Positions 9,282 through 15,216 of a stretch of DNA of 64,000 nt are shown here, piece by piece. A program made the translations under genes and the position numbers. Origin of the DNA: an uncultured Christensenella sp. (GTDB lineage: Bacteria > Bacillota > Clostridia > Christensenellales > Pumilibacteraceae); contig CATLHE010000004.1 in NCBI GenBank assembly GCA_949948895.1, positions 62,001 to 126,000 on the forward strand, given 5' to 3'. The notes beneath the pieces are model-generated. The model was not told where the DNA came from, ran no database searches, and was given only the letters and a program-made list of their open reading frames with translations. Every line of letters begins with the position of its first letter. The first letter of the stretch is position 1.

Positions 9282-9311
9282 ATTATACCATAACCGCCCG
9301 CGCTAAATCAA
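9282..9311 (-). promoter_or_regulatory. sigma-A promoter of the UPF0237-UPF0210 operon, predicted leaderless
   Basis: The minus strand reads TTGATT, an 18-nt spacer, then TATAAT. The usual start point, about 7 nt downstream of the -10 box, falls within 1-2 nt of the ATG at 9274. Confidence 0.7.
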
Positions 9312-9325
9312 GCCTTTCAAGCCAA

Positions 9326-9818
9326 CCAATCACAGATTGGATTTCTGTCGTGTATTTGCGTGATCGTTAATTTTACATTACACCCGAATAAAGGCGGTGC
9401 ATATTTTCTTTTGTCATTCCGAGCTTGCGAGGAATCTAGGCGAACCGCCGCATAGTTGTCGCGCAAAACCAACGATACCCCATAATGTCCCGCACTTATT
9501 CGGGTGCAATGCTATTCCCACACCAACGCCAACGCACGACATCCGTCCAACATTTGGTTGGCGGGCTTACGCCCTAGATCCTTCGGCTTCGCCTCAGGAT
9601 GACAAGTATCAATAACGGGATTTCAACTCAACGTCATTTTTGATTCAATGAGTTACATGTTGTTTTATGTCATTCCGAGCTTGCGAGGAATCCAGGCGAA
9701 CCGCCGCATAGTTGTCGCGCAAAACCAACGATACCCCATAATGTCCCGCACTTATTCGGGTGCTCCCAATAACAAATCACCAACGCCAACACACGACATC
9801 CGTCCAACATTTGGTTGG
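9326..9818. repeat. Hairpin-repeat cluster 3, with a near-identical 95-bp duplication
   Basis: From left: A plus (9326-9391, hairpin CCAATCACAGATTGG), B plus (9416-9435 with ATTCC/GGAAT stem), A minus (9496-9561), B minus (9578-9600), B plus (9673-9692), A minus (9752-9818). The stretches 9411-9508 and 9668-9764 are almost identical copies of one B-plus-A-end block. No gene is present; the track ORFs here are repeat translations. Confidence 0.85.
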
Positions 9819-9823
9819 CAAAC

Positions 9824-9851
9824 GACAAAGCCCGACGGATATCCGTCGGGC
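9824..9851 (-). terminator. Rho-independent terminator of the Ig-like lipoprotein gene
   Basis: A perfect 22-bp palindrome (GCCCGACGGAT/ATCCGTCGGGC) lies 38 nt after the stop codon and is followed on the minus strand by TTTGTCGTTT. An A-type repeat follows directly. Confidence 0.85.
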
Positions 9852-9888
9852 AATAAGTCTGTTTATCGTCAATTATAAGTATCGAATC

Positions 9889-11676
9889 TTACTCCGCCGC
9901 AGTGAACGAATTGAACACTATGGAAGCGATCGAACCGCTTGCATTGAGCGTAACGGTAACATTGTACGTACCCGCCGCCGTACATGTGGCATTTGCACCG
10001 GGTGTAAGCGTGATTGTCGTGACCGATGCATTGCAAGACATAACGTCGGAGTTGAACCATCCTGCTTGATCCATGGTGCCCGCAGGCGAGGTCTTAACAC
10101 CGAAGCCCGCGGCTCCGAGCACGATATCGGCAGTCGCCGTCAAGTGATCTTTGTCAAACGACGCCGTTCCGAACTTAATACCGGTCCACGTGGGATCACC
10201 GTTATCACCTGCGGGTCCCCAGCCGCCGTGGAATACTACGTCGTATTCCCAAGGGAATTCGACGGTCGCATCGCCCAAACGAGTGATCTCTACCGAATAC
10301 TCAGAATTCTCGGCATTATATTTAAGATCAATCTTATACTGACCGTCGGCTTTGATCGCGATGTTGCTTGTTCCGCCTACTTGCGAAGAAAGGTTGACGC
10401 CGGTTTCGGTGTCTTCTGCAGCGAGAGCGCTTGCGCCGATCTGACCGTTCCACTCTGCGCCTACGGTAAGGATCTGGAATTCCGCGCCGCTGTCGAGGTC
10501 TGCCGTGATCGAGTAATCGTCGCCCGTTTTCGTAAGCAATACGTTAGCGGGGACGTCCTCATGTTTTGCTATGGTATTAAAGCCGGTAAGAACAGGCGTT
10601 TTACCCGTGCCTACAAGATAGAGATCTTTTTCTACCGTGACTTCGCACGAAGCGGTCTTTTCAAAGCTGCCCATACCGTACGTTACGGTAACGGTAGCAG
10701 TGCCGGGCTTAAGCGCCGTGATCTTGCCGTCAACTACGCTGACTATCGCGGGCGCGGAAGACGTCCATTCCACGGCGTCCGTCGTGTTTGCGGGCGTGAC
10801 CGTCGCCGTAAGGGTTTCGGCTTCTCCTACGTGAAGAGCGGTCGTTTCCTTGTTGAGAACTACGGTCTCGGCATGGTTGCCCTCGCCTGCGTCAAGAACC
10901 TTGACGTGGCAGGTCGCGCTCTTGCCGTCGCATTCGACGGTGATGTCCGTCTCGCCTTTGGCGACTGCGGTAATGAGACCCTCGTCGCTTACCGTGGCAA
11001 CCGCCTCGTCGTCGGAATCGAAGTATATGGTATCTTTTTCATCCGCGTTCTCGGGATTGATCGTAACTTCGAGCTGGAACGTTTCCAGATAATCGAACTC
11101 GAGAACGATGGACGTTTTATTGAGCTCTACCGACTCTACGGGCACGGGAAGCGCCGCGACGTCGCCGACTTTTTCGCTCGCTATCGTGTTGCCTTCTTCT
11201 TCGTTGATGGTGAGCGTGATTTTGTACTCGCCGTTCGCTTCGATGCCGAAATTATGCTCGCCGGGATAACCGTCGCCGCTGTTTATGATAGCGTCTTCGT
11301 CGGAGTACAGCGTATTGTCGGCGTTGATCTGTCCGCTCCACGACTGACCGACTTTAACTACTTTAAACGTATCGATCGAATAAAGCTTGACCGTTACTTC
11401 GTATACGTTTTCGGTTTCGGTGTACTTGAATGCGAACGGTGCGAACACTTCCTTTTTGGTCGTTGCGTTTGCATTAAAGAAGTTCGGTTCGCCGTCTTCC
11501 GCCGCATTGTAGTCCGCGTACGCGAAATCGCCCGCAAGATAGTAATCGGACTGGTCGCCCGCTTTGGGTTTATTGTCCCCCCCCCCTTTGTTGCCGCAAG
11601 CCGCAAGACTGCCGCCGCAAAGTCCGAGAGCTACGCAAAGTCCGACTGCGATAACTGCCTTTTTCTTTCCCATCAT
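9889..11676 (-). CDS. Lipoprotein with two bacterial Ig-like (Big2) domains
   Basis: AGGAGG precedes the ATG at 11676 (MMGKKKAVIAV), giving 595 residues. A signal peptide ends in a lipobox LAAC near residue 27, so the protein is exported and lipid-anchored. A polyglycine linker follows. Two Big2-type domains lie near residues 165-250 (VESVELNKTSIVLEF to CHVKV) and 250-340 (VVLNKETTALHVGEAETLTATV to CEVTV). The flanking repeated modules (YYLAGDF..., LYLVGTG...) resemble SusE/SusF-like starch-binding modules, an inference from the ELYLVG and W.GQI patterns. A run of 10 G residues in the linker makes the gene a candidate for phase variation. Confidence 0.8.
   Translation of the reverse strand: MMGKKKAVIAVGLCVALGLCGGSLAACGNKGGGDNKPKAGDQSDYYLAGDFAYADYNAAEDGEPNFFNANATTKKEVFAPFAFKYTETENVYEVTVKLYSIDTFKVVKVGQSWSGQINADNTLYSDEDAIINSGDGYPGEHNFGIEANGEYKITLTINEEEGNTIASEKVGDVAALPVPVESVELNKTSIVLEFDYLETFQLEVTINPENADEKDTIYFDSDDEAVATVSDEGLITAVAKGETDITVECDGKSATCHVKVLDAGEGNHAETVVLNKETTALHVGEAETLTATVTPANTTDAVEWTSSAPAIVSVVDGKITALKPGTATVTVTYGMGSFEKTASCEVTVEKDLYLVGTGKTPVLTGFNTIAKHEDVPANVLLTKTGDDYSITADLDSGAEFQILTVGAEWNGQIGASALAAEDTETGVNLSSQVGGTSNIAIKADGQYKIDLKYNAENSEYSVEITRLGDATVEFPWEYDVVFHGGWGPAGDNGDPTWTGIKFGTASFDKDHLTATADIVLGAAGFGVKTSPAGTMDQAGWFNSDVMSCNASVTTITLTPGANATCTAAGTYNVTVTLNASGSIASIVFNSFTAAE
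11577..11586 (-). repeat. 10-G homopolymer within the lipoprotein gene
   Basis: Ten consecutive G on the coding strand encode the GGG of NKGGGDNK, just after the lipobox. Slippage by one base would truncate the protein shortly after its lipid anchor. Confidence 0.9.
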
Positions 11677-11728
11677 TTTGCCTCCTAGCAAAAATTTTAC
11701 ATTGTAAGATTTTTCTTACGTCGTTTTG

Positions 11729-11757
11729 ATTATACACCGCTTTAAAAACTTTGTCAA
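11729..11757 (-). promoter_or_regulatory. sigma-A promoter of the Ig-like lipoprotein gene
   Basis: TTGACA, 17 nt, TATAAT on the minus strand, about 53 nt upstream of the ATG at 11676. The leader holds a short GTAAGA/TCTTAC hairpin (11704-11719). Confidence 0.85.
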
Positions 11758-11821
11758 CACGATTTTTCAAAATAATCCAAAACTTTCGCTTGTTTATGTC
11801 GTTTTGCAATATGTATCGCTC

Positions 11822-12432
11822 TTATTCAGGTGTAACAAATAATCAGCTTATATGTCAATACACGACAAAAATCCAAGCTATGCTTGGCGGAGCGCAAGGG
11901 TCTGCGCTCCCTACGAATGGGTGACAAGCGATATTGAGTGCAACTGTTGATACAGAATATCCCGCGCATTTTAACCTGTCATCCTGAGGCGAAGCCGAAG
12001 GATCTAGGGCGTAAGCCCGCACCAATCACAGGTTGGATTTATGTCGTGTATTTGCAAAGAGATTTATTTTACGATACACCCGAAAAAGTGCGGGGCATGA
12101 GGTGGGGTATCGTTTGTTTGGCATGACAGCAATGCGGCGGTTCTCCTAGATTCTTCGCTTCGCTCAGAATGACAAGCCAAAGGCTTGGCGATTGTCGTGT
12201 GTGAGCGTGAATAATTGGTTTTGCTCTGCACCCGAATAAAAGCAAAGTGTTTATGGGTTGTTGTTTGTTTGGCGTGACAGCTTTGCGGCGGTTCTCCTAG
12301 ATTCTTCGCCTGCGGCTCAGAATGACAATAAATGATATGCTCCGCTCTTATTCGGGTGATACGTACAACAAATCACCAATGCCGACACACGACAAAAATC
12401 CAATCTGAGATTGGCGTCCAACATTTGGTTGG
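11822..12432. repeat. Hairpin-repeat cluster 4 (five A-type, one C, three B units)
   Basis: The 740-bp gap between the lipoprotein gene and sbcC holds only repeats. From left: A minus (11822-11887), C (11889-11910), B plus (11981-12003 with GGGC/GCCC second hairpin), A plus (12022-12087), B minus (12150-12170), A plus with a CAAGCC/GGCTTG stem (12173-12239), B minus (12301-12323), A minus with two hairpins (12348-12432). The last hairpin touches the TAG stop of sbcC. Confidence 0.85.
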
Positions 12433-15216
12433 CTAGTACTTGATTCGACTACCCGTCGTATCCGTCGCCTCCATCACCTCGACGCACGACGGCATGCGCT
12501 CAATGAGCGCGGACGAGTGCGAGATAACGCCGACGAGACATGACGACGCCAAGCTTTCGAGCGCGGCGTACACCGTATCGATAAGCTCGTCGTCGAGCGT
12601 GCCGAACCCCTCGTCCAAAAAGAAGAACGCGTTGTCGCCGCCCGAAACCGAGCGCGCTATCGCTATCGCCACGGCGAGCGACGCCAAAAACATCTCCCCG
12701 CCCGACAGCGTGTCCGTTTTTCGCGCCTTGCCGTCGTTTAAGAAGTCGGACACCACAAACCCGCCGTCGCGGTCGTAACGCATGGTATACTTGCCGCCCG
12801 AAAGCTCTGCGAGTATACCGCTCGCCGCCGCCGTAAAGTCCTCTATGTATTCCGCGGCGACAAAATCGAGCATCTTCTTGCTCTTGGTTATCTCCGCTAT
12901 TTCCTTATATATATTATACGTCTTGATCGCGCCGTCCATTTGGCTGTCGAGCGACTTTCTCTGTTTGACTTTCTCTTCGAGCACGGCGAACTCGGTCTCC
13001 GCCCGCGCCTTTTCGGTAGCGAGCGCCGCCGCCTTGTCCCGCAACCGCTCCAAGTCCTCTTTTGCCGCAACGTACGCGCCTTCGTCAAACTCGGGCGCTT
13101 CCGACGGACAGGCGCGCCGCGCCGCCTCCAAACCCTCTTCCGCTGCTTTGAGCGTAGCCTCCGCCGCCGCGACGGCAAGCCCCAGATCCTTGCGCTTTTG
13201 CTCCCTGGCACCGGCGAGCTTTTCTATATCGCTCTGTTTTTGCTTTACCGCGCCGAGCTCGCCCGCCGCTTTGCCCCTGTACTCGCCAAGCCGCAAGGCT
13301 AGCTCCGCCGCGCGCGCCGAGCTCTGATCCGCCGCGGTCTCTGCCGCCGCCTTTTCCGCCGCCGCCTTTTCCGCCGCGGGCAACAGACTTTTCTCGGCGT
13401 CTTTCGATCTTTCGTAAGCCGCCGCCAGCTTTTCCGCTCGCGCCAATGCGTCGAGCACGCTCTCGTGCGTCCGCTCTTCCACGCCCGTTTGTTCGAGCGC
13501 TTTTGCCGCCGCGTCCTGCTCCGCCTGAGCCGATTTTACCGCCGCGTCGTACTGCTCGTATTTGAGCTTGGCGTTGTCGGTGAGCTTTTCGAACGTCGTG
13601 TATTTCTTGTCCGCGTCGCGCTTTGCCGCGAGCGCTTCGTCGAGCTCGACCTTTCTCGCCTCGACGTCGCCCGCCGCGCACGCGCCGCCGCGGTACTCGC
13701 CGCCGCACACCGGACACCTGTCGCCCGCGTGCAGCTCCGCCGCGACCGCCGCCGCATACGAATCGACCCGCGCTTTCGTGAGCGCCGCTTCCGCCTTTTC
13801 CGCAGTCGCCGCCGCCTCAGTCGCTTCGCTTTTTGCCGCTTCCAGCTCTTTGCCGAGTCGCTCTATCTTGTCCAGCTCCTCGCCCGCATGCTTCATCGCT
13901 TCCTCGCGCTCCGCATCGGCTTTTGCCGCCGCGCGCTTTACTTCGTTGTATTTATCAAGCTCGGTGCGAAGCGCATAGTACACAGCGTTTATCTCTGACG
14001 CCGCCGCTGTCTCGCGTCCGTCGTCATTCACGACGCGCGCCAAGCGCGCAAGAGCTTCCGTCGTGCGCTCCGCCTTCTCCGCCGCCGTCTTTGCGTCGCA
14101 CAGCGCCGCGCGCAGCTTTTGCCCGTCCGCATCCGCCGTCTCGCGCTTTGCATTCAGTTCGCCGCGAATCTTTTCGAGCGCGCCGCGCTTACGCTCCGCC
14201 GCCGCGCGCTTATCCAAAGCGTCCTTTTCCGCCGCTTCGCACTCGCGGTCGCGCTCGACGAGCACGCTCAGCTCGTTTATCCTCGCGCGGATCTCTTCGA
14301 GCTCGCCGTTATAGTCGGGGACCTGTTCCGCCTCGAAGTCGGTCAACGCCCTGTCCGCCTCGGCTTTTTGGGCTTTGGCGCGTTCCGCGCGCTCCGCGCT
14401 CTCGGCTACCGCGCGCTGTTTTTCGAGCGCGCTCTTGTACGCGTCGCGAACCTTGCCCATTTCCTCGAACTCGTCGCGCTTTCTTTGTATCTCGCGCTCG
14501 CCCGCCGCCGCCTTGGCTTTGAGCGACGCGATCTCGCTCTTTTTGGTCTGTACTTCCGCATCGGTCACATTGCCGAGCGTTTCTATACTTTTCTGTATCG
14601 CCGCCGCGTCCGCGTCCGCCGCTTTCATGCGGTCGTTGGCGCGCGAATACACCTCGCCGAACCGCGTCAGCGAGAATATCTTGCCCACCACTTCCGTCTG
14701 CTTGGCGGGCGTGAGTTTCAAGAACTCGGCATACTCGCCCTGTTCCAAAAGATATACGTTTTTGAACTCCGACGCGGCGAGCCCGACTATCTCCTCGATA
14801 GCCGCCGTCGCTTCCTCGCCCTTTGCTATCGGCGCGCCCGCTTTGTACAGCGTGCACTCGCTGACCGCCGAGCGCTTGATCAACGCGTCCCGTTCGACTG
14901 CGTTTTCTTTATCGGACTTGTCCGCTTTTTCGCCGCGGCATTTGATGGTGCGCTCGACGCGATACACTTCGCCGTTTGCCGAAAAATCGAACGTTACGCT
15001 CGCACTGCTGCGCGACAGGTTGACCACGTCGGCGAGATTGCCCTTGCCGCTCTTGCCGTACAGCGCGAGCATGATGCTGTCGAATATAGTCGTCTTGCCC
15101 GCGCCCGTCTTGCCGCAAATACAAAACAGATTGACGCGTCCGACTGCGTCAAAGTCGAGTTCCTGCGCGTCCGTGAACGAATTGACGCCCTCTATCACAA
15201 GCCGTATCGGTCTCAT
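12433..15216 (-). CDS. sbcC: SbcC, ATPase subunit of the SbcCD nuclease
   Basis: SbcC is an SMC/Rad50-like ATPase that tethers DNA and drives SbcD to cut hairpins and blocked ends. The 927-residue protein has Walker A CGKTGAGKTTIFDSI near residue 36, a Q-loop region (YLLEQGEYAEFLK), two long coiled coils rich in Ala/Glu/Lys, a zinc hook CPVC near residue 500, the signature LSGGEMF, and Walker B FFLDEGFGTLDD. Length is at the short end for the family. It follows sbcD after 62 nt in the same operon. A nuclease against hairpin DNA is interesting in a genome this rich in palindromic repeats. The C-terminus ends RIKY and the TAG stop abuts a repeat hairpin. Confidence 0.95.
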   Translation of the reverse strand: MRPIRLVIEGVNSFTDAQELDFDAVGRVNLFCICGKTGAGKTTIFDSIMLALYGKSGKGNLADVVNLSRSSASVTFDFSANGEVYRVERTIKCRGEKADKSDKENAVERDALIKRSAVSECTLYKAGAPIAKGEEATAAIEEIVGLAASEFKNVYLLEQGEYAEFLKLTPAKQTEVVGKIFSLTRFGEVYSRANDRMKAADADAAAIQKSIETLGNVTDAEVQTKKSEIASLKAKAAAGEREIQRKRDEFEEMGKVRDAYKSALEKQRAVAESAERAERAKAQKAEADRALTDFEAEQVPDYNGELEEIRARINELSVLVERDRECEAAEKDALDKRAAAERKRGALEKIRGELNAKRETADADGQKLRAALCDAKTAAEKAERTTEALARLARVVNDDGRETAAASEINAVYYALRTELDKYNEVKRAAAKADAEREEAMKHAGEELDKIERLGKELEAAKSEATEAAATAEKAEAALTKARVDSYAAAVAAELHAGDRCPVCGGEYRGGACAAGDVEARKVELDEALAAKRDADKKYTTFEKLTDNAKLKYEQYDAAVKSAQAEQDAAAKALEQTGVEERTHESVLDALARAEKLAAAYERSKDAEKSLLPAAEKAAAEKAAAETAADQSSARAAELALRLGEYRGKAAGELGAVKQKQSDIEKLAGAREQKRKDLGLAVAAAEATLKAAEEGLEAARRACPSEAPEFDEGAYVAAKEDLERLRDKAAALATEKARAETEFAVLEEKVKQRKSLDSQMDGAIKTYNIYKEIAEITKSKKMLDFVAAEYIEDFTAAASGILAELSGGKYTMRYDRDGGFVVSDFLNDGKARKTDTLSGGEMFLASLAVAIAIARSVSGGDNAFFFLDEGFGTLDDELIDTVYAALESLASSCLVGVISHSSALIERMPSCVEVMEATDTTGSRIKY

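Follow-up and report, generated by a model that had tools for sequence, protein, structure and literature searches.

The gene considered here encodes a 595-aa lipoprotein on the minus strand of the window, by which we mean the whole 64-kb stretch of DNA that was analysed. The features of the gene and of the region upstream of it are as follows.

9889..11676, minus strand: lipoprotein gene, 595 aa, two Big_2 domains, beta-sandwich chain, ON frame in the assembly (open reading frame and translation, Pfam, AlphaFold2, Foldseek)
10282..10527, minus strand: SusF/SusE-like stretch, residues 384-465 (PF16411, E 5.8e-5, 23.9 bits, below the cut-off of 27.5)
10651..10863, minus strand: best Big_2 domain, residues 272-342 (Pfam PF02368)
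11577..11586, minus strand: G10 tract, coding-sequence nucleotides 91-100, Gly31-Gly33 and first base of Asp34
11596..11607, minus strand: lipobox LAAC (L24-A-A-C27), Cys27 at 11598-11596 (translation); L24, A26 and C27 invariant in 8 aligned orthologues
11676-11599, minus strand: signal peptide (translation)
11681..11686, minus strand: Shine-Dalgarno sequence AGGAGG, preceding ATG 11676 / ATG 11673 (sequence)
11729..11757, minus strand: sigma-A promoter TTGACA-17-TATAAT, no G-tract (consensus scan)

The N-terminal signal MMGKKKAVIAVGLCVALGLCGGSLAAC contains the lipobox and Cys27 is invariant in 8 orthologues, as is the case for substrates of signal peptidase II. The protein has two Big_2 Ig-like domains (E 8.6e-23, Pfam) and an AlphaFold2 model with a mean pLDDT of 75.8 predicts a chain of beta-sandwich domains. 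Residues 1-34 were modelled as unstructured and the tract therefore encodes a tether. Foldseek matched the model to SusF and to Big_2-CBM56, amid many further Ig-like chains. Because of these matches and the sub-threshold Pfam match to SusF/SusE, a glycan-binding role for this lipoprotein is likely.

Upstream of the gene, an inverted repeat (GTAAGA-TTTT-TCTTAC) at window positions 11704-11719 lies downstream of the lipoprotein's promoter and ahead of the start codon and is a possible operator. Further upstream, window positions 11870-12420 hold REP-like interspersed sequences that are rich in 'gtcatcctgag...ggatct' and 'ttcggtcgagatgat'. The same REP-like sequences occur at many loci of the related genome G010 (L257, L264, L274, L276, and L291), and many of the G010 copies end directly in G8-G10. 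An Rfam search of window positions 9300-12500 gave no match.

Window positions 11577-11586 contain ten C on the plus strand, which corresponds to G10 on the coding (minus) strand. A run count showed this to be the sole G or C run longer than 6 in the 64 kb; the other runs were G4 (62) and G5 (5), with no longer run of G, and C4 (53), C5 (4), and C6 (1). The coding strand reads AAA-GGG-GGG-GGG-GAC, giving Lys30-Gly31-Gly32-Gly33-Asp34, and the first tract-coded glycine is four residues past the lipobox cysteine (LAAC27-GNK-GGG-D). An earlier sequence-only reading of this DNA had described a ten-G homopolymer that codes only for Gly-Gly-Gly next to the anchor of a surface Ig-like protein, and had proposed that slippage would switch the protein off. 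The homopolymer and its position beside the anchor of such a protein were both confirmed. Nine of its bases code for Gly31-33, and the tenth G opens the Asp codon. The proposed loss of the protein was borne out by translation. A G10 tract yielded 595 aa, whereas G9 yielded 93 aa and G11 yielded 35 aa, both without any domain; slips of any size not divisible by 3 truncate the protein. Thus, two properties of contingency loci, a pure G-tract of at least 8 and, in translation, a change of expression with tract length, are found at 11577-11586. Using Markov models of the window (order 1-4), the expected number of runs of at least ten G was 0.00003-0.007 per window and 0.001-0.2 per genome. The lipoprotein's own genome contains 4 such runs and a chance origin of the G10 run is therefore unlikely.

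We also compared the tract with the corresponding region of seven congeneric orthologues that are 31-45% identical to the lipoprotein over the alignment. The pure tract was absent in all seven. The nearest orthologue (G011) has a glycine linker in mixed codons (GGC GGC GGT GGC GGC GGT GGC), and short polar or glycine tethers follow the cysteine in orthologues. The sequence-only reading had named a tract of invariant length that is interrupted in relatives as evidence against its proposal, and half of this was seen, in that the congeners either have the stretch interrupted by GGC and GGT codons (G011) or lack it. Because the orthologues are only 31-45% identical, this absence points to a lineage-specific tract and does not refute a switch; at such distances it says nothing about variation inside the species. 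A scan of genome contigs with P0001 found no further genome of this species.

The tract is not alone in its genome (G000), which contains ten G-tracts of at least 8. Eight of these are at least 9 long (0.01-1.1 expected from the Markov models), a surplus over composition that is again characteristic of contingency loci, and 4 are at least 10 long. Apart from the tract in the lipoprotein gene, they are as follows.

C1:427437: G10, 3' end of a DeoR-type regulator gene
C4:3640: G9, inside a 1155-aa lipoprotein gene
C4:52897-52905 (L342, tract at 2502-2510): G9, near the start of an octopine-dehydrogenase-like gene
C5:75322: G12, intergenic
C5:88361 (promoter C5:88353-88378): G12, in a TTGACA...TATACT spacer of 14 bp
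C5:94173 (promoter C5:94158-94187): G9, in a TTGACA...TACAAT spacer of 18 bp, upstream of an ABC transporter gene
C7:31355-31362 (L337): G8, at the Shine-Dalgarno position of a small gene
C12:10883: G8, inside a GH16 lipoprotein gene
C12:16626: G9, upstream of another lipoprotein gene

The small gene behind the G8 at C7:31355-31362 presumably resembles those of BhlA/UviB-type holins. A tRNA was suspected beside the G12 promoter tract and none was found there.

Two of these tracts (C5:88361 and C5:94173) lie between the -35 and -10 boxes of a promoter, and the occurrence of such tracts across the family outweighs the window tract as a finding. The pattern TTGAC-N-G9-N-TANNNT gave 187 matches, a number that includes overlapping alternatives, in 39 of 74 family genomes versus 1 match in a backward control. 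In a class-wide sample it was present in 14 of 392 genomes, several of them from the same family and order. The spacer tracts are G9-G15 and are usually near the -10 box. As a comparison, we used the TTGACA/TATAAT promoters listed for G010 and G017, with the few that carry tracts removed. In these tract-free promoters, the spacer was 17 in 117 of 147 and 18 in 25 of 147. Family promoters with the same hexamers and a tract had spacings from 14 to 22, with 7 of 23 at 17-18, and the difference in scatter was highly significant (Levene P 6e-9, Fisher P 4e-13). This scatter is what drift of tract length between -35 and -10 would produce. A C-tract version of the pattern gave 5 matches versus 187 for G. 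We initially took this strand bias as proof of selection and have withdrawn it, because tract-free spacers already hold more G than C runs (10 versus 0 for runs of at least 4) and the bias is partly explained by spacers being generally G-rich.

Tracts of at least 9 G are common in the genus, the family, and part of the order, and G9-G15 are abundant in the genus and family. Counts of tracts of at least 8 were 58 in G010, 32 in G017, and 31 in G006, the last including some at contig ends that are suspect. Poly-G or G/C-rich runs at contig ends were also seen at G050:C12:3-57, G006:C77:6-63, and G004:C10:2-33; contig-end runs are probably sequencing or assembly artefacts that inflate the tract counts of some drafts. 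Mismatch-repair loss as a cause of the long tracts was ruled out, with MutL over its cut-off in 63 of 74 family genomes, including that of the lipoprotein.

The sister species G006 and G010 allowed us to compare tracts at the same sites. Pairing gave 16 pairs, the last two of which were set aside as not clearly orthologous. The remaining 14 have a flank identity of 72-99% and 6 of them differ in length. One is an orthologous lipoprotein pair with a MAAC/LAAC lipobox and the tract about 19 residues beyond it; G006 has G9 and is ON (836+ codons), and G010 has G10 and is OFF. The pair L320/L329 also differs in state, owing to an indel adjoining the tract.

Tracts in the lipobox region were found in a Big_3 lipoprotein (G010 L275), in an SBP_bac_5 lipoprotein directly before LVAC (G017 L354), and in a lipoprotein of another genus (G023 L115). 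There are 4 independent cases among 122 tracts versus about 0.7 expected (P about 0.005 in a test that was devised post hoc). Across the family, a lipobox-plus-tract pattern barely exceeded its backward control and few of the matches were true lipoproteins; thus, lipobox placement recurs but is not dominant. Pfam assigned other tract genes to LytTR response regulators, GHKL histidine kinases, GH16 and GH3 enzymes, BspA-type LRR and InlB-repeat proteins, ABC transporters, a cytosine methylase, an epimerase, and a LacI regulator. The G11 of G017 L361 (C6, tract 2908-2918) follows the first 48 or so codons of an open frame that weakly matches the C-5 cytosine DNA methylase family and may encode a phase-variable methylase. 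Tracts were also found where switching is not obvious, namely at gene 3' ends, in REP-like repeats, and in intergenic DNA.

In LytTR-GHKL operons of G006 and G010, the regulator gene has the tract at its end, and the tract stops 5-12 nt before the kinase start codon. The junctions with G9-G11 are as follows.

G010: L259, L262, L270, L281, L283, L328
G006: L294, L296, L297, L299, L307, L331

Since they end 5-12 nt before the kinase start, these tracts may double as a Shine-Dalgarno sequence, and perhaps they switch the C-terminus of the regulator or translational coupling. The LytTR regulators at L267, L292, and L322 have tracts in their promoters instead.

The main alternative to a switch is neutral slippage, according to which short G runs expand by drift wherever a change in length matters little, as in linkers, gene ends, and intergenic DNA, and are mutable without being kept as switches. 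This would fit a lineage-specific tract in a tether predicted to be disordered, at a site where orthologues already have glycine codons. It would also fit the many G010 tracts at 3' ends or in repeats, and the G-rich promoter spacers could seed expansion. However, a frame shift in this gene destroys the protein, so a tract of mutable length would carry a cost if OFF cells were neither tolerated nor favoured. In addition, tracts persist at orthologous sites with flank identity down to 72%, and the genes concerned are mainly those of surface proteins and regulators. We regard neutral slippage as less likely than a switch. A second alternative is that the run is real and its length was miscalled in the assembly, as is frequent with homopolymers. 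Carefully measured G-tract lengths in Bifidobacterium breve deviated from the database sequence (PMC9187656) and some poly-G runs at contig ends in related assemblies look artefactual. However, the window tract is contig-internal, its called length keeps the 595-aa frame that matches full-length orthologues, and a length error would not create a tract; we give this explanation very little weight. Finally, that the tract is a mere glycine linker with accidental codons and no switch is highly improbable even though residues 1-34 are modelled as disordered and orthologues also have short polar or glycine tethers after the cysteine, given that GGG makes up about 12% of glycine codons in the window's genes (P about 0.002 for GGG-GGG-GGG at this usage) and 0 of the 56 remaining glycine codons in the lipoprotein gene, and that the nearest orthologue builds its linker without GGG.

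We consider the best explanation, with a probability of roughly 65%, to be that the tract, which lies in the tether of a surface lipoprotein that probably binds glycans, is a hypermutable poly-G contingency site and a member of a poly-G set of the genus and family. Slipped-strand mispairing in replication would add or remove G's. The assembled G10 and lengths that differ from it by multiples of 3 would be in frame and ON. G9 and G11 would be OFF because only the lipid anchor, the tether, and a short tail would be made. The poly-G set to which the tract would belong occurs in lipoproteins, secreted enzymes, and regulators, and most recognisably in sigma-A promoter spacers. The sequence-only reading had called the tract a candidate for phase variation. 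The tract itself, the truncating slips, the surplus in the genome and family, the ON and OFF states of sister species, and the scatter of promoter spacing support this idea, and switching in vivo is the part that we infer. The length of the tract, in a range (at least 8) that switches expression in Campylobacter jejuni (PMC6321876), along with the sister-species pairs and the promoter data, suggests that slippage could occur at a high rate in vivo, that switching would be reversible, and that it may be selected for. Rates may be modest because MutL is present. On a larger scale, we see about even odds that a poly-G phasome of genome scale operates in this family of Christensenella-like gut Clostridia, in which up to about 60 tracts per genome would stochastically set sigma-A spacing, lipoprotein display, and the balance of LytTR/GHKL (agr-like) two-component systems, with the window lipoprotein as one member.

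This kind of switch is already known, and homopolymeric tracts are a recognised kind of phase variation in general (PMC2831843). The C. jejuni phasome (PMC6321876) likewise has a genome-wide surplus of G-tracts (of at least 7), surface-related coding regions, and frame-dependent ON and OFF states. Unlike in C. jejuni, the tracts described here are from an uncultured Clostridia lineage, many are in sigma-A spacers, and their switching is predicted from sequence. In B. breve, a gut commensal in which a G-tract switch was demonstrated, an intragenic G-tract also decides whether a surface structure is made (PMC9187656). However, the gene encodes a sortase pilus subunit and not a lipoprotein, and the study both measured its length variants and modulated them in mice; promoter-spacer tracts are mentioned there too (PMC9187656). 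The vaa adhesin gene of Mycoplasma hominis similarly has a homopolymer near its 5' end and is ON with 8 A and OFF with 7 or 9, but the tract is poly-A and the switching frequency was measured (PMC524362). The promoter-spacer tracts of the family resemble porA of Neisseria meningitidis, where transcription is set by how many G lie between -35 and -10 (PMC3899988). Unlike porA, the window tract is in coding sequence and the lipoprotein's own 17-bp spacer has no tract. Among the papers searched, none dealt with poly-G phase variation in Christensenellales. Judged by a housekeeping peptidase, the closest relatives with a name are uncultured Christensenella/Clostridiales assemblies.

The best evidence for phase variation by slippage comes from host-adapted pathogens, along with a few commensals including B. 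breve. In an uncultured gut lineage, the presence of dozens of poly-G tracts in each genome, located at the anchors of lipoproteins, in promoter spacers, and in two-component operons, suggests widespread stochastic switching of surface and regulatory functions, and metagenomic reads that already exist allow tract variation to be read off directly. These data are also a warning that some genes that look disrupted in assemblies of this kind may be in an OFF state. The octopine-dehydrogenase gene of the lipoprotein's genome reads MNITIVGGGT* at its G9 tract, and the next frame stays open for the remainder of the gene (346 codons), which includes the Octopine_DH domain. Its orthologues encode the GGGN motif in GGC or GGT codons and in frame. 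It seems that the assembly either captured the gene in an OFF state or miscalled the tract by one base.
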